From the NCBI RefSeq assembly GCF_012034175.1, contig NZ_JAATEJ010000024.1, positions 62,001 through 126,000 on the forward strand: a DNA stretch of 64,000 bases, written 5' to 3'. Positions 462 through 14,821 of the stretch are shown here, piece by piece; the stretch's first letter is position 1; every line of letters begins with the position of its first letter. Source of the DNA: Actinacidiphila epipremni (GTDB lineage Bacteria > Actinomycetota > Actinomycetes > Streptomycetales > Streptomycetaceae). A program made the position numbers and the translations under genes. The notes beneath the pieces are model-generated. The model was not told the DNA's origin. It worked only from the letters and a program-made list of their open reading frames with translations, and made no database searches.

Positions 462-1376
462 GTGCCCGTATCACGTGGTGAGCCGGGCGGGGGCGCCGGC
501 TCGCCCACCTTCCAGGAGCAGGTGGACGCGTTGTGCGTGCCGCAGGCCGACGGCACCCGGCGGGTGGACGTCAGCGCCTTGCGGGCCCTCGTGGCGGCCG
601 ATCCCGAGCAGACCGCGGCCACCTGCAGGACATGCGTCACCCGCGCCAAGGAGCAGGGCAGGACCTGGCGGGGGTACGCCCAGATGGCGATGACGCTCGC
701 CGCGCTCTACGAGAGCGTCTTCGACGACGACATCCTGGCCGTATGGGTGACCGACGAGTTCGACCGCGCCGGGATCTCGGTGCCGAACCCCGCCGTCCGG
801 GTGGTCGATCCCAGGACCGGCGCCCTGTCCGACCCCGACGAGCGACCCGAGGAGGGTCCGGTCCAGATCGCGGTCGAGCGGCGGTTCATCGACGCGTGCG
901 ACATCCGCCCGCTGGTCGTCCACCTCTCCCACCAGCCGGACGGGACCGGCCCGGAGCAGCTGCGACGGCTGCGTGGGCGCCGGGGCCGGGTGCTGATCAC
1001 CTTCGACATCCCGGCGTCGGACCCCCGCGAGGTGTGGGAAGTCCCGGAGGTGCGCGATTACGTCGGCAGGCTCGCCGAGGCGATGCCTTACCTGCCCTAC
1101 TACTTCCTGCCCCGCGACTTCGGCACGCTGTTCACCTGGCTGGCCTGCCTGGCCCCGCCCGAAGCCTGGTCGCCGAGCGGCATCCGGCTGCTGCACCCCG
1201 ACGTCGTCCAGCAGGCCGCGCTGGCGGTGCACTCCGTCCGGAAGTTCGCCGCCTGGCTCGGCGACGATCCCGACGCGGTCGTGGCGACCGTCTTCTCCCC
1301 CCTGCCCGGGGAGTTCATGGCCTACGTCCACCGCGTCCAGGCCGAGCTGGACAGACGGCTCGGCGATGCCTCCTGA
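462..1376 (+). CDS. Unrecognised protein, first gene of the CHAT operon
   Basis: A 304-residue soluble protein with a GTG start, preceded by a G-rich Shine-Dalgarno-like run. I do not recognise a family. The first 110 residues look helical and include an ACRTCVTRA segment. The middle has beta-strand character (VQIAVERRF, RPLVVHLSH, RVLITFDIP). The C-terminal third has an aromatic stretch (MPYLPYYFLPRDFGTLFTWL). There is no signal peptide or membrane segment. The next gene starts 11 bases inside this one, so the two are translationally coupled. From position alone I infer a partner, sensor or regulator of the CHAT protein. That it is coding is well supported by codon bias and the coupled overlap; its function is unknown. 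Confidence 0.75.
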   Translation: MPVSRGEPGGGAGSPTFQEQVDALCVPQADGTRRVDVSALRALVAADPEQTAATCRTCVTRAKEQGRTWRGYAQMAMTLAALYESVFDDDILAVWVTDEFDRAGISVPNPAVRVVDPRTGALSDPDERPEEGPVQIAVERRFIDACDIRPLVVHLSHQPDGTGPEQLRRLRGRRGRVLITFDIPASDPREVWEVPEVRDYVGRLAEAMPYLPYYFLPRDFGTLFTWLACLAPPEAWSPSGIRLLHPDVVQQAALAVHSVRKFAAWLGDDPDAVVATVFSPLPGEFMAYVHRVQAELDRRLGDAS

Positions 1377-4164
1377 GGCCGCCGACGCGGTCGAGGCCGC
1401 ACGGCGGGTGCTGGACGGCCGGTCGTCCATGGCCGAGGCGGCCGGCCTCCTGCGGCGCCCGCTGCCCTCCGCGGCGCACCGGCACGTCCGGCACGGTGAG
1501 GTGCAGCAGCTCACGGAGATGATCGACCGGGCCGAGGACGCCGGCCGGGTCGAGATGCTCACCGAACTCGCCGCCGCAGCCGCCGCACCCGTCGCGGACC
1601 CGGTTCGCGCGCAGGTCCTGGCCCGCGGCGCGACCCGGCTGATGGCACTGCACGCCCCCGAGCCGGCCGTGGCCCTGCTGGCAGCGGCCCGCCCGCTGCT
1701 GTCCGGCGACGAGCTGATGCAACTGGAGACCGACCGGCTCCGGCTGCACGCCCTCTGCGACCTCGACGACCGCGCCGCCTTCGAACGCGACCTGCCGGGC
1801 GTGGCCGGGCAGGCCGAGCGGCTCGGCAGCGACTCCCAGCTGTGCATGGTCCTCTACGACCGGGCGGTCCTGGCAGCACGCGCCGGGGACGCCCCGTGCG
1901 CGCTGGAGAGCGTGCGGGAAGCCCGCCGGCTGCGCGCCCGTGTGCCGACGGAGGACGCATACGCGCACGCTCCCGACCAGTTCGCCCTCCAGCACGCCAG
2001 GATCGCCCGGCAGAACGGCCGGTTGGAGGAGGCGCTCGGCGCCCTGGAGGACATGCGGAAGCTCGCCCTCGCGGCCGGCCGGCACACCGAGGCGGCGTGG
2101 GCGCGCAGCGAACTCGGTATCACCTGGGACCTGCTCGGCGACAGCGGGCGGGCCGGGAAGCTGCTGCGGAGCGCCGCGGCCGAGGCGGAGCAGGCCGGGC
2201 GGGGCGACCTGGCGAGCCACTGGCGGCATGAGGTCGGCGACGGCGCGGACGGCGCGGACGGCGAGGACGGCCCGTCCCGGTACTGGCAGCGGGCGTCGGC
2301 CCTCATGCTCGGCACGACGGGCCGGGCCGAGGAGGCCGTGCCGCTGCTGCGCAAGGCGATCGCCGACGCCCGCGACGCGCACCACGCGGACCTGGAGGCC
2401 GACGCCCGCAACATGCTCGCCGCCGCGCTGGAGGAGTGCGGGCAGCCCGAGCAGGCGCAGATGGCGCTGCGGACGGCGATCGCCACCGCCCGCCGGTCCG
2501 GCGACGCACTGCGCGAGGTCCGCTACGGCACCAATCTCGCACGCGTCCTGATGTTCGACGGCGGCGTCGAGGAGGCGCAGCAGGAGATCGAGTCCGTGCT
2601 CGCCCTGGGGGAGCGGCTGCGGGCGAGCGCCGCGACCGTCGAGCTCAGCCAGAGCGTGGCCATCACGCTGGCCCGCGCGTACGACACCGCGATCCTGATC
2701 GCCGCCGGGATGCACAAGACCGCGAGGGAACTGGGCGAGGACGCGAGCCCGCAGTTCGCGGCCTTCGCGCGCACCCGGCCCGACGCGCTGGTGCGGATGG
2801 GCCAGCGGGCCCGGGCCGCCACGATGACCGAGGCCCTGCGGATCGGCCGGGTCGTGGAGGCCGACGGGGGCTCGGCCCCGGAGCTGGTCTCGGCGATGCT
2901 CGACCTGCGGGCCGGCGAGGCGGCGGTCCAACTGGCCGCCGCGCGCGTGGAGGATCTCTCCCCCGCCCTGGCGGCGCGCGACCGGAGCGCCGCGCGACTG
3001 CGGGAGGCGGCCGGCTCGGCCGGGGTGTCCCTGACGGTCGGCTCGGTCCCGGTCGGGCGCGACGACCTGGCGGCTGCCCTCGCGCCCGACGAGGTCCTGG
3101 TCGACCTGCTCACCGTCCCCGAGGGCGTGGTCGTCACCATCCTCACGCCGGCCGGGGAGTCCGCGGTCGAGATCGTCCGGTGGCCGGAGGACGACCGGCG
3201 CCGCATGGTCAAGCAGATGGAGCGCGCCTGCCGCGAGCGGGTGCGCGCCCACCGCGACGACGTCGTCGAGACCCGGCTGGCGGTCGAGGCCGCCGTGGAC
3301 GCCCTGGACGCGGTGCTGCTCACCACCGTGGCCGACACCGTACGGGCGGTGATGCCGATAGCGCCCCGGCGGATGCTGGTGAGTCCGGAGAACGAGCTCT
3401 TCCACCTGCCGTACTGGCGGCTGTCGGCCCGGCTCGACGACTGCACGGTGAGCATCCTGCCCACCCCGGGAGCGCTGCCGCTGCTGCGCGCCCGGCGCAG
3501 GGACGGGCGGCGGCCGTGGATCTCGGTGGGCGATCCGTCCGGGACGCTGCGCCACGCGGCGCAGGACCTCCCCGCCGGGCTCGGCTACCGGCCCTGCGCG
3601 CCGGAGACCGGCGCCCTGCTGCGTACGCTGCCGGCCGCCGGCCGGGTCCACTTCGCCTGCCACGGGCACTTCGAGCCGGGCAACTCGCTGCTGTCGGGGC
3701 TCGACGTCCGTGCCCCGGCCGGCCCGGCCGATCCGCTCGGGATGCCCCCGCCGGCCGGTCCGGACGCGCCCGGCCGCTTCACCGTGGCGCAGATCTCCGG
3801 CCGCCTGTACCTGCCGCACTGCTCGCTGGTGGTCCTGTCGGCCTGCACCTCCGGGCTGCCCCGGGTGCATCCCGCCAGTGAGTTCACCAGCCTGCCCGGG
3901 GCGTTCCTGATGTCCGGCGCCCGCAACGTCGTGGCGTCCCTGTGGTTCGCGCAGGACAAGGCGGCGGCGCTGCTGATGCGTGCCTTCTACGACGCGCTCG
4001 ACGGCAGTCCGTCCGCCGCGCTGGTCGCCGCCCGGCGGCGGCTGGCCGCGACCGGCAGGGCGGAGGCGGCCGAGCTCCTGGGCACCGACGACCTCCCGCC
4101 CTTCGACCCGCCGTTCGCGGAGACCGTGTACACCGACTGCTTCCAGCACTACGGAGTCGACTGA
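1366..4164 (+). CDS. TPR-CHAT protease-like protein
   Basis: A 932-residue protein. Residues of roughly 30-480 are alpha-helical repeats of tetratricopeptide type, with repeated alanine/leucine helices such as RAEEAVPLLRKAIADARDA. The C-terminal third is a CHAT domain, a caspase-like cysteine peptidase fold. It has the catalytic histidine in FACHGHF (His766) and the catalytic cysteine in VVLSACTSG (Cys827), followed by the usual GAFLMSGARNVVASLW segment. The dyad is intact, so it is probably an active protease. In other bacteria CHAT proteins act as TPR-regulated proteases that cleave a co-encoded effector (for example the type III-E CRISPR-associated protease and proteases beside bacterial gasdermins). 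Its stop overlaps the start of the next gene (TGATG), which marks that product as a likely substrate. Confidence 0.85.
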   Translation: MPPEAADAVEAARRVLDGRSSMAEAAGLLRRPLPSAAHRHVRHGEVQQLTEMIDRAEDAGRVEMLTELAAAAAAPVADPVRAQVLARGATRLMALHAPEPAVALLAAARPLLSGDELMQLETDRLRLHALCDLDDRAAFERDLPGVAGQAERLGSDSQLCMVLYDRAVLAARAGDAPCALESVREARRLRARVPTEDAYAHAPDQFALQHARIARQNGRLEEALGALEDMRKLALAAGRHTEAAWARSELGITWDLLGDSGRAGKLLRSAAAEAEQAGRGDLASHWRHEVGDGADGADGEDGPSRYWQRASALMLGTTGRAEEAVPLLRKAIADARDAHHADLEADARNMLAAALEECGQPEQAQMALRTAIATARRSGDALREVRYGTNLARVLMFDGGVEEAQQEIESVLALGERLRASAATVELSQSVAITLARAYDTAILIAAGMHKTARELGEDASPQFAAFARTRPDALVRMGQRARAATMTEALRIGRVVEADGGSAPELVSAMLDLRAGEAAVQLAAARVEDLSPALAARDRSAARLREAAGSAGVSLTVGSVPVGRDDLAAALAPDEVLVDLLTVPEGVVVTILTPAGESAVEIVRWPEDDRRRMVKQMERACRERVRAHRDDVVETRLAVEAAVDALDAVLLTTVADTVRAVMPIAPRRMLVSPENELFHLPYWRLSARLDDCTVSILPTPGALPLLRARRRDGRRPWISVGDPSGTLRHAAQDLPAGLGYRPCAPETGALLRTLPAAGRVHFACHGHFEPGNSLLSGLDVRAPAGPADPLGMPPPAGPDAPGRFTVAQISGRLYLPHCSLVVLSACTSGLPRVHPASEFTSLPGAFLMSGARNVVASLWFAQDKAAALLMRAFYDALDGSPSAALVAARRRLAATGRAEAAELLGTDDLPPFDPPFAETVYTDCFQHYGVD

Positions 4165-5009: not shown

Positions 5010-5131
5010 CGGCCGGCGGCCGACCCGGCGCCACCCGCCCGGCCCTGCGCGCGGAAGGCCGCCGCGCCGGACACGCCCGTTGACCGAGCCCCCGTACGCC
5101 GCGGTCGCCGCGTATTCTTGGTGGTGTCGTA

Positions 5132-5196
5132 CGGCGGAGGGGCTCGCCGTCATCCGCGGCGTCGTGCCGCCAACGGTCCCTACCTTCACAGGTAGG
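5132..5196 (+). promoter_or_regulatory. Diverged fluoride-type riboswitch before the second enolase
   Basis: The folding plan matches the fluoride aptamer. P1 is CGGCG (5132-5136) with CGCCG (5145-5149) around an 8-base loop. P2 is GCGGC (5156-5160) with GCCGC (5166-5170). A 4-base joiner is followed by GGTCCCT (5175-5181), which can form the pseudoknot with AGGGGC (5138-5143). The conserved core bases differ: the loop starts GAG instead of AUG and the joiner is CAAC instead of UGAU. The aptamer 3' strand also pairs in the hairpin CCTACCT (5179-5185) / AGGTAGG (5190-5196), which covers a Shine-Dalgarno (GGTAGGAG) before ATG 5203. This suggests translational control. A canonical copy sits upstream of the nearby MutS genes. 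Confidence 0.5.
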
Positions 5197-5202
5197 AGAG
5201 CC

Positions 5203-5496
5203 ATGCCCCCGTTTCCCACCCGCGCAGCGGCCCCAGCGCCGCGAGGCCCGCGCCTTGGTGCGCCCGGGGCCGGGCGCGGGACGCCGCGGCGCGGTGCGGG
5301 CGTGCGATCTTCCCCCGCCGGGTCTGCCCGGCTTCCTCGACGAAAGGCCGACCGTGTCCTTGCAGATCGTTACGCTGCGTGCTGTCGAAATCCTCGATTC
5401 CCGGTCGCGTCCGACGCTGTCGGTGACGGTGGGCCTGTCCGGTGGGGCGGTGGCGACCGCGGGGGTGCCGTCCGGGGCGTCGACGGGGTCGGGTGA
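5203..5496 (+). CDS. Possible 97-residue leader ORF overlapping the enolase start
   Basis: ATG 5203 has a very good Shine-Dalgarno (AGGTAGGAG) at the end of the riboswitch hairpin. The reading frame runs without a stop to 5496, overlapping the enolase start (5354) in another frame. The peptide is low in complexity and rich in Arg, Gly and Pro, and resembles no family I know. I think it matters, if at all, as a translated leader that couples the riboswitch-controlled ribosome entry site to enolase translation. It may be an artefact of GC-rich sequence. Confidence 0.25.
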   Translation: MPPFPTRAAAPAPRGPRLGAPGAGRGTPRRGAGVRSSPAGSARLPRRKADRVLADRYAACCRNPRFPVASDAVGDGGPVRWGGGDRGGAVRGVDGVG

Positions 5497-6622
5497 GGCG
5501 GTGGAGTTGCGGGACCTGGACCCGGCGCGTTACGGCGGGCAGGGCGTGCGTACCGCGGTCGGGCATGTCAACGGGGTGATCGCCGACGCCTTGCGCGGGC
5601 GGGAGTTCGCCGATCTGGCCGCCGTGGACGGGGCGTTGATCGAGCTGGACGGCACGCCGGACAAGTCCCGGCTGGGTGCCAACGCGGTCATCGGGGTGTC
5701 GATGGCGGTGGCGCGGGCCGCGGCGGTCGAGGCGGGGGTGCCGCTGTGGCGGTATCTCGCCCCGGTGGGTGTCGCCCCGCGGCTGCCGGTGCCGCACTTC
5801 AATGTGCTCAACGGCGGGGCCCATGCGCCCAACCCGCTCGACTTCCAGGAGTTCATGATCGCCCCGCTGGGCGCTCCGGACATCGCGGAGGCGGTACGGG
5901 CCGGCGCCGAGGTCTACGCGGCCCTGCGGAAGAGGCTGCGTGATGCCGGCCATGACACCGGGCTGGGCGACGAGGGGGGCTTCGCGCCCGCGCTGTCCCG
6001 GCCGGAGGACGCGCTCGACGTCATCGCGCAGGCCATCGCCGACGCCGGGTACCCGGCCGGCCGGGACGGGGTCGCCATCGCGCTGGACCCGGCGGCCAGC
6101 GAGTTCCGGCAGAAGGACGGCCGCTACCGTGTCGACGGTGAGCTGCTGGACAGCGGGGACCTGATCGCCCGCTACCGGAGGATCGTCGAGGACTACCCCG
6201 TGTGGAGCATCGAGGACGGCCTCGGCGAGGACGACCGGGAGGGGTGGGCGAGGCTGACCACCGACCTGGGCGGGCACATCCAGCTCGTCGGCGACGACAA
6301 CTTCGTCACCGACCCGGCGGTCATCTCCGCGGCGGTGTGCGACGGCATCGCCAACGCCTCGCTGATCAAGCCCAACCAGATCGGCACCGTGACCGAGACG
6401 CTGCAGGCGGTGGCCGTGTGCCGCGACGTCGGCTACGGGGCCATGGTCTCGCACCGCTCCGGCGAGACGGAGGACTCCTTCATCGCCGACTTCGCGGTCG
6501 CCACCGGCTGCGGCCAGCTCAAGTCCGGGGCGCCGGCCCGCGGTGAGCGCGTCGCGAAGTACAACCGCCTCGTCGAGATCGCCGCGGACAACCCGGACCT
6601 GCCCTACGGGCTGGGACGGTGA
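5354..6622 (+). CDS. eno: Enolase (second, fluoride-associated copy)
   Basis: A 422-residue phosphopyruvate hydratase (2-phosphoglycerate to phosphoenolpyruvate), cytoplasmic. The GTG start follows AAAGG and gives the usual N-terminus ([16 protein letters not shown]). All hallmarks are present: mobile loop [21 protein letters not shown], metal-binding IEDGL and GDDNF, catalytic LIKPNQIGT, and [10 protein letters not shown] phosphoglycerate mutase follows with a GTGA overlap, so the unit rebuilds the lower-glycolysis step 3-PG to PEP. Enolase is the classic fluoride target, and enolase genes are known members of fluoride-riboswitch regulons. I infer an inducible spare or fluoride-tolerant enolase besides the housekeeping copy, which is not in this window. 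Confidence 0.93.
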
Positions 6623-7368
6623 CACCGCGGCAGCCGCCCGGCGTCCTCGTCCTGCTGCGCCACGGGCAGTCCACGGCCAACGCCGGCGGGGTCTTCACCG
6701 GCTGGATCGACGTGCCGCTGACACCGGACGGCCGGGCCGAGGCGCTCGCCGCCGGGCGACTGCTCGGGGCCGCCGGCCTGCTGCCGGACGTGGCGCACAC
6801 CTCGGTGCTGCGCCGCTCCATCGTGAGCGCCGACCTGGTCCTCTCCGCGCTCGGCCGGGACTGGATCCCGGTCCGCCGCACCTGGCGGCTCAACGAGCGC
6901 CACTACGGCGCCCTGACCGGACGCCGCAAGGCCGAGGTGCGCGCGGAGGCGGGGGAGGAGCGGTACGCCCTGTGGCGGCGGTCCCTCGACGTCGCCCCAC
7001 CGCCCGCCGTACCCGGCACCGCACCGCCGGCCGGCGACCCGCGCTACGCCGGCCTCCCGCCGGACGCCCGGCCCGCGACCGAGAGCCTCGCCGACGTCCA
7101 GGCGCGGCTGCTGCCGTACTGGGCCGACCACCTCGCCCCCGACCTGGCCCGCGGCCGTACCGTCCTGGTCGTCGCCCACGGCAACTCCCTGCGCGCCCTG
7201 GTCGCCCACCTCGACGCCCTCCCCCCGGAGCAGGTCGCCGCCCTCAACATCCCCACCGGCATCCCCCTGCGCTACCGCTTCACCCCCGACCTGCGCCCCG
7301 CCGAACCCGCCCAGTACCTGGACCCGGAAGCGGCGACCCGCGCGGCCGAGGCGGTCGCCCACCAGTGA
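6619..7368 (+). CDS. gpmA: 2,3-bisphosphoglycerate-dependent phosphoglycerate mutase family protein
   Basis: 249 residues, GTG start overlapping the enolase stop. Histidine-phosphatase fold: the phosphorylated-histidine motif LRHGQSTAN near the N-terminus, then [15 protein letters not shown], the substrate loop [14 protein letters not shown], and the second catalytic histidine in [12 protein letters not shown]. These are signatures of the cofactor-dependent mutase that interconverts 3- and 2-phosphoglycerate, the substrate of the enolase before it. The region around residues 125-155 is a proline-rich insertion ([14 protein letters not shown]) that is not strongly conserved. It is co-transcribed with the enolase and ends just before the convergent small ORF at 7378-7563. 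Confidence 0.88.
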
Positions 7369-7377
7369 ACGCCCCGG

Positions 7378-7563
7378 TCACGCCGTCCGCGTACGCCCCA
7401 TGCGCCGCACCCTCAGGAGCAGCGGCAGCGCGGCGGCCTGGACGACGACGGAGAAGACGACGGCCCCGCTGACCGACCGGTCGTAGAGCACGCCGCCTCG
7501 CCCTCCGATGAGCAGCACGAACCGGAAAGCCGAGCGACGCGCGTGGTCCTGCGGGGACGGCAC
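7378..7563 (-). pseudogene. Fragment resembling the C-terminus of a cation/proton antiporter
   Basis: A 61-codon frame starting at GTG 7563 with GACGAGG upstream, directly after the MutS-like gene. The peptide has FRFVLLIGGRGGVLYDRS then VFSVVVQAAALPLLLRVRRM, which resembles the last two membrane segments of CPA-type Na+/H+ antiporters (GGLRG...LVQGLTLP). The rest of such a transporter is missing. Na+/H+ antiporters are among known fluoride-riboswitch-controlled genes, so this is probably a decayed member of the island. It could instead be a small membrane protein that happens to look similar. Confidence 0.35.
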
Positions 7564-7565
7564 GG

Positions 7566-9089
7566 CTACCTCGTCGACGACGGGGAGGCGTCGGGGCCGG
7601 GCGCTTCGCCGTAGATCTGGCGGTAGAGGTCGGCGCCGTCGGCGGTGGGTTGCGGGGGGCCTTCGGTGAGGTGGAAGGTGCGGGTGCCGTCGGGGCGGCG
7701 TTCGGCGCGCAGGAACAGGGCGTCGGGGCCGTACTGCTCGTGCAGGCTGGAGGCGAGGTCGTACAGGTGGGTGACGCAGACGATCTTCACGCCGGTCTCG
7801 CGCAGGGCGCGGAAGACCTGGCGGGCGATCTCGGAGCCCTCGCGTTCGTCGGTCGCGGCGAAGGACTCGTTGGACAGCAGGAGGCTGCCGGGGGTGAGGT
7901 GGTCGGCGATGGCGCTCATCCGGGCCAGCTCCTCGTCGAACTTGCCGCTGACCATCGCGGTGTCCTCCTCCCGGCGGAAGTGGGTGAACACCGCGTCGCG
8001 CAGGTCCGCGCGGAAGGCGTCGGCGCCGGTGAACATGCCGGCCTGCATCATGAGCTGGGCGAGGCCGACGCTGCGCAGGAAAGTCGACTTGCCTCCCTCG
8101 TTGGCGCCGGTGACGACCAGCAGGCCGCGCCCGTCGGCGTCGACGGTGTTGCCGACGACCGGCCCGTCGCGGCGCAGCGCCAGGCACACGTCGTACAGGC
8201 CCCGGCAGTTCAGCGCCGGGGTGCCGGCGGGCCGCGGCTGCGGGAAGCACACCGGGGAGTTCCGCGCGGCCAGCTCCTGGTGCAGGTTCAGGCAGGCGAC
8301 GTAGAAGCCGAGTTCGCGGCGCAGCATGGTGAAGAAGCCGAGGATGTGGTCGGCGGACCGGGCCAGCGCGTCGGCGGCCAGGGCGATGCCGCGCCCGCGC
8401 AGCTCGCCGAGGAACTGCGCGCCGGCCTCGTCGCGGTCCGGGACGCGGTAGGTGTACGAGGTGGGGTGGCCGCCGGTGAGGCGTTCGCGCCAGCCGGGCC
8501 GGGCGGGCGGTTCGCGCAGGACGTACCCGGTGCCGGCCAGGCCGCGGCCGAGGTGGGCGCTGATGTGGACGCCGCCGCGGAATCTCAGCCGGGTCAGGTG
8601 CTCCTCGACGGTGTCGAAGTAGGCGTCGTCGAGGTCGTCGGCGAGCATGGTGAAGAAGCGGCCGAAGCCGGGCGAGGCGAAGTCGGCGGCGTGCTCGTCG
8701 CGGATGTGCCGCAGCCGGTGCAGGTGGTCCACGAACAGGTCGAGCACCTGGACCGCGCGGGACAGGACGGAGTCCGCGGTGTGCAGGAAGCTGCCGAAGA
8801 CCCGCCGCTCGCGGGCGACGGCGCCGGCGGCGACCGCGTAGAGGTCGCGTACGACGTCGGGCCGGGCCAGCGCGTCGGCCAGGACCCCCTGGCGGTGCGC
8901 GATGACGCCGGCGTCGGGCACCGAGGTGAGCAGCACCCGGGAGGCGATGTCGCGCAGGTACGCGTCACCGCCGCCCATCGCGTCCAGCAGGGTGTCCAGG
9001 TCCAGGTCCCGGGTCAGGTCCGCCAGCTGCACGGGCAGTTCGGCCTGCCAGTCCGCGTCGTGGCCGGGGTGCAGCAGGAGCGTTTTCAT
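7566..9089 (-). CDS. MutS-like ATPase (copy A of a pair)
   Basis: 507 residues. ATG 9089 overlaps the stop of copy B (ATGA). The N-terminal 280 residues are helical and correspond to the MutS core/lever region. The C-terminus is the MutS/ABC-type ATPase: Walker A GANEGGKST, the switch region ARMSAIADHLTPGS, Walker B LLLSNESF, and the family's VTHLYDLA. The mismatch-reading N-terminal domain of true MutS (about 850 residues) is absent, so classical mismatch repair is unlikely. Shortened MutS homologues are known in fluoride-riboswitch operons, but their job there is not understood. It is the third gene of a unit that begins with the canonical riboswitch at 10899-10952. Confidence 0.85.
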   Translation of the reverse strand: MKTLLLHPGHDADWQAELPVQLADLTRDLDLDTLLDAMGGGDAYLRDIASRVLLTSVPDAGVIAHRQGVLADALARPDVVRDLYAVAAGAVARERRVFGSFLHTADSVLSRAVQVLDLFVDHLHRLRHIRDEHAADFASPGFGRFFTMLADDLDDAYFDTVEEHLTRLRFRGGVHISAHLGRGLAGTGYVLREPPARPGWRERLTGGHPTSYTYRVPDRDEAGAQFLGELRGRGIALAADALARSADHILGFFTMLRRELGFYVACLNLHQELAARNSPVCFPQPRPAGTPALNCRGLYDVCLALRRDGPVVGNTVDADGRGLLVVTGANEGGKSTFLRSVGLAQLMMQAGMFTGADAFRADLRDAVFTHFRREEDTAMVSGKFDEELARMSAIADHLTPGSLLLSNESFAATDEREGSEIARQVFRALRETGVKIVCVTHLYDLASSLHEQYGPDALFLRAERRPDGTRTFHLTEGPPQPTADGADLYRQIYGEAPGPDASPSSTR

Positions 9090-10624
9090 GACGCGATCCG
9101 TGCCTTGAGCTGCCGGTAGGTCAGCCGGTACTTCTCCGCGACGGACAGGGCGTGGGCGAGGCCGTCGGCGGGCCTGCGCACGACGCGGTACGTACGGTGG
9201 CCGGGGTCGTCGGGCGCCACGGTGCTGACCATGCTCACCGTGCTCGGCCCGAGCGAGGCGAGCTCGTCGACGAAGGTGACGCACACGCACAGCAGGTCGC
9301 GCGCGACGACGGCGCGCAGGACGCTCGTGCCCAGGAGCACGGCGTCGGCGAGGGTCGTCGAGGTGAAGACCTCGTTCATCACGACGACGCTGGACGGCGT
9401 GGCGCGCTGGAGGATCTCGTGGGTACGGACCAGGTCGTCGTACAGCTTGCCGCTGAGGTCGGCGAGGTTCTCGCCCTGCTCGAAGTGGGTGAAGACCTGG
9501 TCGCACAGGAAGAGCCGGGCCTGCGTACCGGGGACGGGGCACCCGAGGGCGGCCAGGTGGTGCAGCTGCCCGAAGGCGCGGGCGAAGGTGGTCTTGCCGC
9601 CCTGGTTGGGCCCGGAGACCACGATCACCCGCTCCGGGCCGGACAGCTCGACGTCGTTGAGCACCACCGGCGAGCCCTCGCGGACCAGCTTGGCGGCCAG
9701 GGCGAGGTCGAAGGTGTCGCGGACCAGGGTCTGCTTGGCGGTGTCGTCGACCTCCGGGAGGCAGAAGGCAAGACCTGCGGCCTTCAGCGGGGCGGTGAAG
9801 TCCAGATAGGCGAGATAGAACTGGATCTCCCGGTCGAACGCGGTCACCACCGGGTCCAGGAAGTCCCGGTGCGCCGCGAAGTGCGCGTCCAGCGCGGCGA
9901 ACGGCTCGGGGAAGAGCCGCGCCACCCGGTCCAGTACGGCCTCCTCGACGTGGTTCATGGCCAGGTTCGGGGCCGGCGGCGCCCGGTGGCCCGCGGTGTC
10001 CTCCTGCCCGAACCGCTCGAAGACCGCCACGACCCGGGCGCCGTAGTCGGCCTGCTCCTCGTATCCGCTCACGCGGACCCGGCCCCCGCTGATGTGCAGG
10101 CTGTAGCGGATCTCCGCCAGCCGCGCCCGCAGCGCCGCCGTGGACTCGGCCAGCGCGGTGAATCGGGCGTCGCCCGCATACGCGGCCAGGTACTCGTGCA
10201 CCGCGCGCAGCCCCGCCGAGCGCAGGTCCCGGCCCGCGAGCAGCGCGGTGACCTCGCGGACCGCCGCGCAGTAGGTGCCGATCGCGTCGACGAGCAGGCT
10301 CTCGCGCTGGTAGGGGTGGTGCAGCTCGCGCGCCTGCCGGACCTGCTGCCGCATGGCGCGCAGCCCCGCCCCGAAGGCGGCGAGCCCCGCGGCCAACTCC
10401 GGGTCCGCCAGGTCGCGGAAGACGTCCTGCCGGTGGGTGACGGTGGCCAGGGTGCGGATCGGGGTGTGGAAGAACGGCGCGAGCGCGTACTCCCCGCGCC
10501 CGGACACCAGCGCGCCGACCACCTGGTCCAGATGCAGGTCGGCGAAGAACGCCGGCTCCTGCGTCCGGGGAAGTTCCGCGTCAGCCGCGTCGGTGAACAG
10601 CACGCTCGGCGGCGCCGCGGTCAT
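9086..10624 (-). CDS. MutS-like ATPase (copy B of a pair)
   Basis: 512 residues. The ATG overlaps the stop of the small upstream ORF (ATGA). It has the same layout as copy A: a long helical core, then an ATPase with Walker A SGPNQGGKTT, a DQVFTHFEQGENLADLSGKL switch segment, Walker B SSVVVMNEVF and VCVTFVDELASLG. The two copies are clearly homologous but far from identical, so they probably form a heterodimer. Like copy A it lacks the mismatch-recognition domain. Translation is coupled down the whole unit by ATGA overlaps, so the riboswitch at the head should control both ATPases together. Confidence 0.85.
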   Translation of the reverse strand: MTAAPPSVLFTDAADAELPRTQEPAFFADLHLDQVVGALVSGRGEYALAPFFHTPIRTLATVTHRQDVFRDLADPELAAGLAAFGAGLRAMRQQVRQARELHHPYQRESLLVDAIGTYCAAVREVTALLAGRDLRSAGLRAVHEYLAAYAGDARFTALAESTAALRARLAEIRYSLHISGGRVRVSGYEEQADYGARVVAVFERFGQEDTAGHRAPPAPNLAMNHVEEAVLDRVARLFPEPFAALDAHFAAHRDFLDPVVTAFDREIQFYLAYLDFTAPLKAAGLAFCLPEVDDTAKQTLVRDTFDLALAAKLVREGSPVVLNDVELSGPERVIVVSGPNQGGKTTFARAFGQLHHLAALGCPVPGTQARLFLCDQVFTHFEQGENLADLSGKLYDDLVRTHEILQRATPSSVVVMNEVFTSTTLADAVLLGTSVLRAVVARDLLCVCVTFVDELASLGPSTVSMVSTVAPDDPGHRTYRVVRRPADGLAHALSVAEKYRLTYRQLKARIAS

Positions 10625-10893: not shown

Positions 10894-10898
10894 TTGAT

Positions 10899-10952
10899 CG
10901 GTAGAAGCCATCAGCGGCGCACAACCGCGGTCGAAGGCGGGCCTCATCGCCT
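10899..10952 (-). promoter_or_regulatory. Fluoride riboswitch (crcB motif), canonical
   Basis: Read on the minus strand from 10952, P1 is AGGCG-ATGAGGCC-CGCCT, with the invariant AUG at the start of its loop. P2 is GCGG closed by CCGC. The joiner is the invariant TGAT. GGCTTC then pairs with GAGGCC of the P1 loop to form the pseudoknot, and the 3' end is TACC. This matches the fluoride aptamer of Thermotoga in architecture and core bases. The aptamer 3' strand CTTCTACC can also pair with GGTGGAGG, the Shine-Dalgarno of the ORF at 10851, which suggests that fluoride binding frees ribosome entry. Confidence 0.9.
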
Positions 10953-11076
10953 GCGTTCCATGCTGGGCGCGGGCCGTGGCACTGTCAACGCCCCCGGGGG
11001 CGTGTCGCGCGGATCGGCCGCCGCCGGGCGCTGTCGCCGCCCGGCACCCCGGGCTCCCGTAGGGTCCGGCCCGGCC

Positions 11077-13144: not shown

Positions 13145-14821
13145 GTGACCACAGAACCCATGCCGGCCCGGCCCAGGGCGGTCCCGGCGCTGACCCCTGG
13201 CGTGGACGCGCCCACCTGGCCCGAGGAGTTCGCCGAGCGCTACCGCCGGGCGGGCCACTGGCGCGGCGAGACCCTCGGCGGCATGCTCCGCGCGCGGGCC
13301 GCCGCCCACCCCGACCGGATCGCCCTGGTCGACCCGCAGCCGGAGCGCCGCAGCTGGACGTACCGGCGGCTGGACGAGGCCGCCGACCGGCTCGCCGCCG
13401 GGTTCGCCGGCCGCGGGATCGGCCCTGGCGACCGGGTCGTCGTCCAGCTCCCCAACGTCGGCGAGTTCGTCGAAGTGGTGTTCGCGCTGTCCCGGATCGG
13501 CGCGCTGCCCGTCTTCGCGCTGCCGGCCCACCGCGACACCGAGATCGCGCATTTCTGCTCCCTGTCCGGGGCCGTCGCCTATGTGGTCCCGGACGTGCAC
13601 GCCGGCTTCGACCACCGCGAGCTCGCCGAGCGCGTCCGGCGGCGATCGCCCGCCCTGCGCGAGGTGTTCGTGGCCGGGGAGCCCGGCGCGCACACCGCGC
13701 TCGCGGACCTGCCCCGCGACCCGGCGGGGCCGCTGCCCGGCCCGGAGCCGCACGAGCTGGCCTTCCTCCAGCTGTCGGGCGGCACGACGGGCATGTCCAA
13801 GCTGATCCCGCGCACGCACGACGACTACCTCTACTCGGTGCGCGGCTCCGCCGGGATCTGCGGCGTCGGCCCGCGGACCCGCTTTCTCGTCGTCCTCCCC
13901 GCGGCCCACAACTTCCCCATGAGCAGCCCCGGTTGGCTCGGCACGCTGTACGGCGGCGGCACCGTCGTGCTGTGCCCGCAACCCGACCCGGCCACCGCCT
14001 TCGCGCTGATCGGGCAGGAGCGGATCACCATGACCGGGCTGGTGCCGCCGCTCGTCGCGCTGTGGACGGACGCCGCCGCGCGCGGTACGGGCGACCTGGG
14101 CAGCCTGGAGCTGGTCCTGGTCGGCGGCGCCAAGTACGGAGAGCAGGCGGCCCGCCGGCTCGAACCGGCGCTCGGGTGCAGGCTGATGCAGGTCTTCGGG
14201 ATGGCCGAGGGACTGGTCAACTACACCCGGCTCGACGACGATCCGGAGACGGTCGTCACCACGCAGGGCCGGCCGATCTCGCCCGACGACGAGGTCAGGA
14301 TCGTCGACGACGACGGCCGGGACGTACCCGAGGGCGAGTGCGGGCAGCTGCTCACCCGGGGCCCCTACACCATCCGCGGCTACTGGCGCGCCCCCGAGCA
14401 CAACGCCGCGGCCTTCACCGCGGACGGCTTCTACCGCACCGGTGACCTCGTGCGCCGTACGCCCAGCGGCCATCTGGTGGTCGAGGGCCGCGCCAAGGAC
14501 CAGATCAACCGCGGCGGGGAGAAGTTCGCCCCGGGGGAGATCGAGGACATCATCCTGGCCCACCCCGCGGTGCGCGACGTCGCCCTGGTCGCCGTGCCCG
14601 ACGAGTACCTCGGCGAGCGCACCCTCGCCCATGTGATCCTGCGCCCGGACACCGACCCGCCGACGCCCGCCCAGATCAAGGCGTTCGTACGGGAGCGCGG
14701 CGTCGCCGCCTACAAGATCCCCGACCTCGTCCGCTTCGTGGACGTCTTCCCGCACACCGGTGTCGGCAAGGTCAGCAGATCGGGGCTGCGGTCGGCCGCG
14801 GCCTCCCGCGAACAGCGCTGA
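13145..14821 (+). CDS. dhbE: 2,3-dihydroxybenzoate-AMP ligase
   Basis: 558 residues, GTG start with GGGAG eight bases upstream. An adenylate-forming enzyme of the EntE/DhbE type, with the P-loop-like [18 protein letters not shown], the aryl-acid pocket segment [13 protein letters not shown], the A5-like [21 protein letters not shown] and the C-terminal lysine region [13 protein letters not shown]...GKVSRSGL. It activates DHB (here perhaps 4-chloro-DHB) as the acyl-adenylate and loads it on the phosphopantetheine arm of the free aryl carrier protein at 18542. Whether its pocket prefers the chlorinated acid cannot be read by eye. Confidence 0.93.

Follow-up and report, generated by a model that had tools for sequence, protein, structure and literature searches.

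A putative fluoride riboswitch subtype with a swapped core pair, upstream of an enolase gene of Actinacidiphila epipremni and in many other actinomycetes

Background

Upstream of an enolase gene of the actinomycete Actinacidiphila epipremni lies a leader that can be folded like the fluoride riboswitch (crcB motif, Rfam family RF01734), with other bases in its core. Does such an RNA still sense fluoride, does it sense a different ligand, or is it a remnant or a fortuitous likeness? A preliminary description of this DNA, made from the sequence alone, had proposed a fluoride-type aptamer with an altered ligand core, acting either as a weaker fluoride sensor or as a sensor of another small anion or of a metabolite of lower glycolysis. 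Here we follow up that description in a window of 64,000 nucleotides (the whole stretch analysed, positions 62,001 to 126,000 of contig NZ_JAATEJ010000024.1) and in relatives of the element, and conclude that it very probably belongs to a large subtype of fluoride riboswitches that escapes the present Rfam model.

The crcB gene encodes a fluoride channel, and to our knowledge fluoride export is the only role described for it. Enolase is an enzyme inhibited by fluoride. In the known structure of the fluoride riboswitch, as set out in PMC11586693, A6 and U38 form a reversed Watson-Crick pair, and A40 and U48, the linchpin, a reversed Hoogsteen pair; a passage of PMC10687018 names the A6-U38 pair under another numbering. 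The Bacillus cereus switch became unresponsive when U41 was changed to A, according to PMC11077080.

Methods

The leader was used as a blastn query. An alignment of 35 copies including the window copy (A1) was turned into a covariance model, R1. This model and RF01734, whose Rfam cut-off (gathering score) is 34 bits, were run on 394 genomes spread evenly over the class; as a limited number of first-look candidates was scored per genome, the genome counts of both models are lower bounds. Covariation was calculated on a non-redundant set of 75 copies, taken from the R1 matches and the canonical RF01734 copies, in which both A40 and U48 were required. For the neighbour census, the first recognised gene with an ORF start within 600 bases was recorded for 144 copies. 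The gene references were checked with Pfam, except for the ABC-F reference, the small membrane protein (which belongs to no Pfam family) and the CrcB reference of locus L015. Minimum-energy folding cannot represent pseudoknots and was therefore left out as proof.

Results

Fold of the element in the window

The variant aptamer extends from position 5131 to 5187 on the plus strand, as delimited by the sequence, by R1 and by its relatives. P1 is formed by GGCG (5133-5136) and CGCC (5145-5148) around an 8-base loop, GAGGGGCU (5137-5144). A joiner (5149-5155) leads to P2, made of GCGGC (5156-5160) and GCCGC (5166-5170), which is followed on its 3' side by CAAC (5171-5174). The strand GGUCCC (5175-5180) can pair with loop positions 5139-5144 in an H-type pseudoknot of six possible pairs, two of them G-U. 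The linchpin bases are in place, with A40 at 5173 and U48 at 5181. P1, the 8-base loop, P2, the six-pair pseudoknot and the A40-U48 linchpin are all shared with RF01734, and the fluoride-type architecture put forward in the preliminary description is borne out.

The core departs from that of the family, and the changes reported earlier, AUG to GAG and UGAU to CAAC, had been read correctly. Positions 6 and 38 are G and C instead of A and U, and position 41 is C (5174) instead of U. The window copy scores 70.3 bits with R1 (E 4e-16), being itself among the 35 seed sequences of that model. The minimum-energy fold of 5131-5206 has a z of -2.2, and its aptamer part favours another long hairpin.

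A canonical fluoride riboswitch of the A6-U38 form lies 5.7 kb from the variant on the minus strand (10895-10960; 38.9 bits with RF01734). Two MutS_V genes, assigned by Pfam, are located downstream of it on the same strand (9089-10624 and 7566-9119).

Recurrence in actinomycetes and detection by the Rfam model

With the leader as query, blastn found a close copy of its core in the same genome (93%, on contig C40) and, in further members of the genus, weaker ones; some of the matches lie within the GC-rich 3' half and look fortuitous. The window element and a copy from another genus (L039) are 89% identical. The upstream regions of enolase orthologs alone had given an impression of no conservation, which was discarded; the closest relative of the enolase in this genus (G023, 76%; locus L040) has no R1 match. 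Scanning enolase leaders with loose descriptors of the architecture proved uninformative and was set aside, since GC-rich DNA matches such descriptors often.

Among the 394 genomes of the class, R1 matched at least 61 at E<=1e-7 and at least 67 at E<=1e-3, against at least 12 above the cut-off and at least 25 at E<=1e-3 for RF01734. Strong R1 matches and Rfam-level matches coincided in six genomes, and one kind or the other was present in 67, so that 55 of the 61 genomes matched by R1 at E<=1e-7 had no Rfam-level fluoride riboswitch. The G-C form is widespread in actinomycetes, and the standard family model misses it because the A-U contact is swapped for G-C.

In a run of the Rfam model, which the preliminary description had named as a check, the window element itself went unreported: within 2 kb RF01734 gave nothing at E<=10, and none of its 12 matches in the own genome, with scores down to 11.5 bits, lies at this position. 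Other variant loci scored weakly positive: with permissive filters, 16 of 20 reached 16.7 to 22.9 bits and four gave no match. Among the G6-C38 copies reported by the model, the best (G441) scored 32.5 bits and none reached 34. The likeness of the G6-C38 form to the family is real, yet below the cut-off.

R1 gave three matches in the own genome at E<=0.01, and the pairs are intact in each of them. Outside the class, 24 loci were fetched with R1 from a phylum sample of 346 genomes; 12 were complete, with full P1 and pseudoknot, all in the A-U form, and the other 12 were broken. R1 was also run on 63 of 80 fetched enolase loci, and none of the non-actinobacterial ones among them gave a match. 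Viral contigs gave no match to one strict pattern, which would miss the A7 subtype of the window because T was fixed at position 7. On plasmids the variant was found in three records, all from Streptomycetaceae.

The two forms can occur in one genome, and they share the same fetched locus in nine cases. On contig C40, a variant copy (13712-13769, minus strand) and a canonical-like element (13986-14049, plus strand; L232) stand back to back with about 215 bases between them; the latter scores 30.5 bits, under the cut-off, and lies upstream of an ABC-F-like gene named by reading. A G6-C38 copy at L123 (1507-1564, plus strand) has a 9-base loop and a C in place of U48, and is possibly decayed.

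A coordinated change of the core

Of 133 distinct R1 matches, 128 retained both A40 and U48, and 128 likewise had at least three P1 pairs and five pseudoknot pairs. The commonest core (G6, C38, A39, A40, C41, U48) was found in 99 of the 133 and canonical cores (A6, U38, G39, A40, U or C41, U48) in 16. Compared with RF01734, the variant has G6-C38 for A6-U38, and mostly A for G39 and C for U41.

In the covariation set, pair 6-38 is G-C in 44 copies, A-U in 29, A-A in one and A-C in one. It has the highest corrected mutual information of all column pairs at least four apart, followed by a P2 pair and by the pseudoknot pair 9-46. Matched 6-38 pairs were observed in 73 of the 75 copies, with a mean of 38 and a maximum of 54 after shuffling. 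Positions 39 and 41 correlate with position 6 as well, but in all four combinations, unlike position 38: G39A and U41C usually accompany G6-C38, and C41 is found in 8 of the 29 A-U copies too. Position 7 is A in 11 of the 44 G-C copies. The idea that the A-U contact of the core was replaced by G-C is upheld both by G6 and C38 in the window and by the covariation of the pair in relatives. Judged from these alignments, the altered core is a coordinated swap of A6-U38 for G6-C38.

The two forms cluster on a CrcB protein tree with 80 rows. Independent 6-38 swaps number two on its starred (well-supported) branches and three on all branches (sign test p 0.5), which is too few for testing the pair. 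The preliminary description had made its reading depend on conservation and covariation of the stems in related species, and this check did not refute it: P2, pair 9-46 and pair 6-38 do covary, with few independent 6-38 swaps shown.

Genes downstream of the two forms

Behind the 106 copies of the G6-C38 form in the census, the first recognised gene was crcB in 71, enolase in 11 (a share inflated because enolase loci were fetched on purpose), Usp in seven, a small membrane protein in three, a dynamin-like gene in two, and ABC-F, mutase-like and MFS genes in one each; none was recognised in nine. The 33 copies of the A6-U38 form were followed by crcB (8), MutS_V (6), pyrophosphatase (3), ABC-F, NUDIX or Usp (one each) or no recognised gene (13), and 5 of the 144 copies were of mixed form. 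CrcB identity was supported by Pfam at L237, L272 and L233. The variant also occurs on plasmid pFRL5 (Streptomyces sp. F8), upstream of an annotated crcB-DUF190-crcB-TSUP group. Like RF01734, the G6-C38 form precedes fluoride-response genes, among them crcB, enolase and Usp. The proposal of a lower-glycolysis metabolite or another anion as ligand was not supported, because the variant RNA mostly precedes crcB; fluoride is the best-supported candidate ligand of the G6-C38 form.

While crcB and Usp are common to both forms, MutS_V, pyrophosphatase and NUDIX genes were found behind 12 of 37 A6 copies versus 0 of 106 G6-C38 copies (Fisher p 2e-8). This bias may reflect function, inheritance or sampling, since the two forms came from different searches.

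In Curtobacterium and relatives (L074, L076, L080 and L088, at about 3050-3120), the variant is located upstream of a universal-stress-protein-like gene, identified as Usp by Pfam on L088 only, and has an A-ended P1 (GGCA/UGCC or GGUA/UGCC). The small membrane protein is two-helix-like and without Pfam family (L120, 1246-1521, minus strand; L039, 3295-3552, plus strand), and is possibly a new fluoride-response gene.

A hairpin covering the Shine-Dalgarno sequence

In the window, CCUACCU (5179-5185) can pair with AGGUAGG (5190-5196) in a hairpin spanning 5179-5196 on the plus strand, read from sequence and folding and matched by similar helices in relatives. AGGUAGG is part of the Shine-Dalgarno sequence preceding the ATG at 5203, and C46 to U48 (5179-5181) are common to this hairpin and the aptamer, which compete for them. 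Folded alone, the hairpin has a z of -2.5.

A second helix starting at C46 and reaching the Shine-Dalgarno sequence is possible in many R1 copies, and in many crcB leaders it is formed by CCUACUUGC with GCGAGUAGG; 12 of 128 R1 copies have no six-pair helix from C46 on. Among the 44 non-redundant G-C copies, 29 have their own helix of at least six pairs (46% with swapped partner strands), 18 one of at least seven (19% with swapped partners, p 5e-4) and 13 one of at least eight (8.1%, p 3e-5). The helix adjoins a Shine-Dalgarno sequence and start codon in 23 of these 44. For the A-U copies the excess is slight, with helices of at least eight pairs in 6 of 29 versus 10% with swapped partners. Transcriptional fluoride switches are nearly absent from Actinomycetota, as reported in PMC13273304. 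The helix excess and this report fit a translational ON switch, which the G-C form probably is.

The enolase leader

The enolase gene (5354-6622, plus strand; Pfam Enolase_N and Enolase_C), one of three enolase matches in the own genome, is followed by a histidine-phosphatase (phosphoglycerate-mutase-like) gene (6619-7368, plus strand; His_Phos_1) that overlaps its stop. The claim that the 3' strand pairs with the Shine-Dalgarno sequence holds for CCUACCU and AGGUAGG, but the covered sequence is not enolase's own, because the ATG at 5203 starts an out-of-frame ORF of 97 codons (5203-5496, plus strand; no Pfam family) that overlaps the enolase start at 5354.

At L039 and L041 a short ORF likewise overlaps the enolase start, with sequences unlike that of the window ORF, and a short ORF was read by eye in the leader 3' of the switch at L053, L054, L056 and L057. 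Counted together, 7 of the 11 enolase copies (3 computed, 4 by eye) have a short ORF, and not enolase, at the start codon under the switch, and translational coupling is possible for such leaders. At L048, L051, L060 and L066 there are 35 to 68 bases between the end of the switch and the enolase match. The leader of the window may act by translational coupling or by relief from Rho polarity.

Elsewhere in the window, a protein with a CHAT domain and a weak match to TPR (1366-4161, plus strand) adjoins a protein with a Crr6 match (462-1373, plus strand). An antiporter remnant suspected at 7381-7560 on the minus strand was rejected, as Pfam found nothing above its cut-offs there.

Discussion

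Could the core change have altered specificity, so that the RNA now binds a metabolite of glycolysis, for instance 2-phosphoglycerate, or a small anion other than fluoride? Variant classes of other riboswitches have switched ligand, as recounted in PMC7266159. Positions 6, 38, 39 and 41, near the pocket, are altered together, and the two forms coexist within a single genome and, in nine cases, within a single fetched locus. Against this, crcB, for which we know of no described role other than fluoride export, is the commonest gene behind the G-C copies (71/106) and also follows 8 of the 33 A-U copies, and we regard a changed ligand as improbable. Alternatively, the fluoride aptamer of the window might have decayed or become blind to its ligand, and now serve as a constitutive leader. 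Such decay would agree with a covered start codon that serves a short ORF whose sequence differs among relatives, with an A at position 7 in just 11 of 44 G-C copies, and with the missing R1 match at the nearest enolase relative in the genus. However, the window copy has kept all its helices, the pseudoknot, both bases of the linchpin and the anti-Shine-Dalgarno hairpin intact, and these parts match the copy in another genus (L039), which makes decay quite improbable.

The anti-Shine-Dalgarno hairpin is stable alone, as would be expected of a protein-bound leader or of a plain hairpin that mimics the fluoride fold. The conserved bases, however, lie in the loop, the pseudoknot strand and the linchpin and not in the hairpin, and RF01734 scores are weak yet positive in 16 of 20 variant loci; this explanation is very improbable. 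As for chance resemblance within GC-rich DNA, loose descriptors do match GC-rich leaders often (up to 162 overlapping matches per 460-base leader) and the minimum-energy fold is a different hairpin. The conservation found already contradicts it: R1 gives low E-values and just three own-genome matches at E<=0.01, with pairs intact in all, P2 and the pseudoknot covary, and the element sits before fluoride genes. Its probability is practically negligible.

From the fold potential, recurrence, covariation, gene neighbours and Shine-Dalgarno pairing observed, we infer a fluoride-dependent control of translation. In the presence of fluoride and Mg2+, C46 to U48 would be kept in the aptamer by the pseudoknot and the linchpin, leaving the Shine-Dalgarno sequence free and translation ON. 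Without fluoride, C46 to U48 and the following bases would pair with the Shine-Dalgarno sequence and translation would be OFF. In the window, the freed start codon would begin the short leader ORF, which runs into the enolase start. Because this ORF reads into that start, enolase and the mutase-like gene would probably be raised by coupling, supplying the enzyme that fluoride inhibits.

The 3' pseudoknot strand would be shared with the expression platform, as in RF01734. Translational fluoride riboswitches such as that of Pseudomonas syringae, named in PMC13273304, also act without an intrinsic terminator, a mode of control suggested for the variant by its Shine-Dalgarno hairpin; they are canonical members, whereas the core of the variant is swapped. 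In the ligand-changed variant riboswitches covered by PMC7266159 (guanine, adenine and 2'-dG; c-di-GMP and c-AMP-GMP), the parent fold was kept and core bases near the ligand were altered in coordination, as here. The ligand was switched in those cases, whereas the gene neighbours of the G6-C38 form point to an unchanged one. An exchange of A-U and G-C is also known for the Levitt pair 15-48 of tRNA, a reversed Watson-Crick tertiary pair; that RNA is unrelated, and the analogy with pair 6-38 concerns geometry only.

We found no description of the G6-C38 form in the titles and abstract openings of open-licence literature; an earlier notice is possible. With at least 12 versus 67 genomes of 394, the standard model seems to overlook most fluoride switches of the class. 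A review (PMC11139923) places about 15% of Fluc genes under riboswitch control, and an Rfam-based count of such genes would be an underestimate for this class. The natural swap of A-U for G-C in a tertiary pair beside the ion offers a direct way to probe the requirements of the fluoride pocket, and the G-C form supplies GC-rich, probably translational, putative fluoride sensors for actinomycete engineering.

More tentatively, and as a rather unlikely possibility, the two aptamer subtypes in one actinomycete cell could form a two-part fluoride response, split by genes and by thresholds or metal needs. The G6-C38 form would then drive export and the rescue of glycolysis (crcB, enolase) and the A6-U38 form repair and clean-up (MutS_V, pyrophosphatase, NUDIX), the swapped reversed Watson-Crick pair setting differing fluoride thresholds or metal needs.
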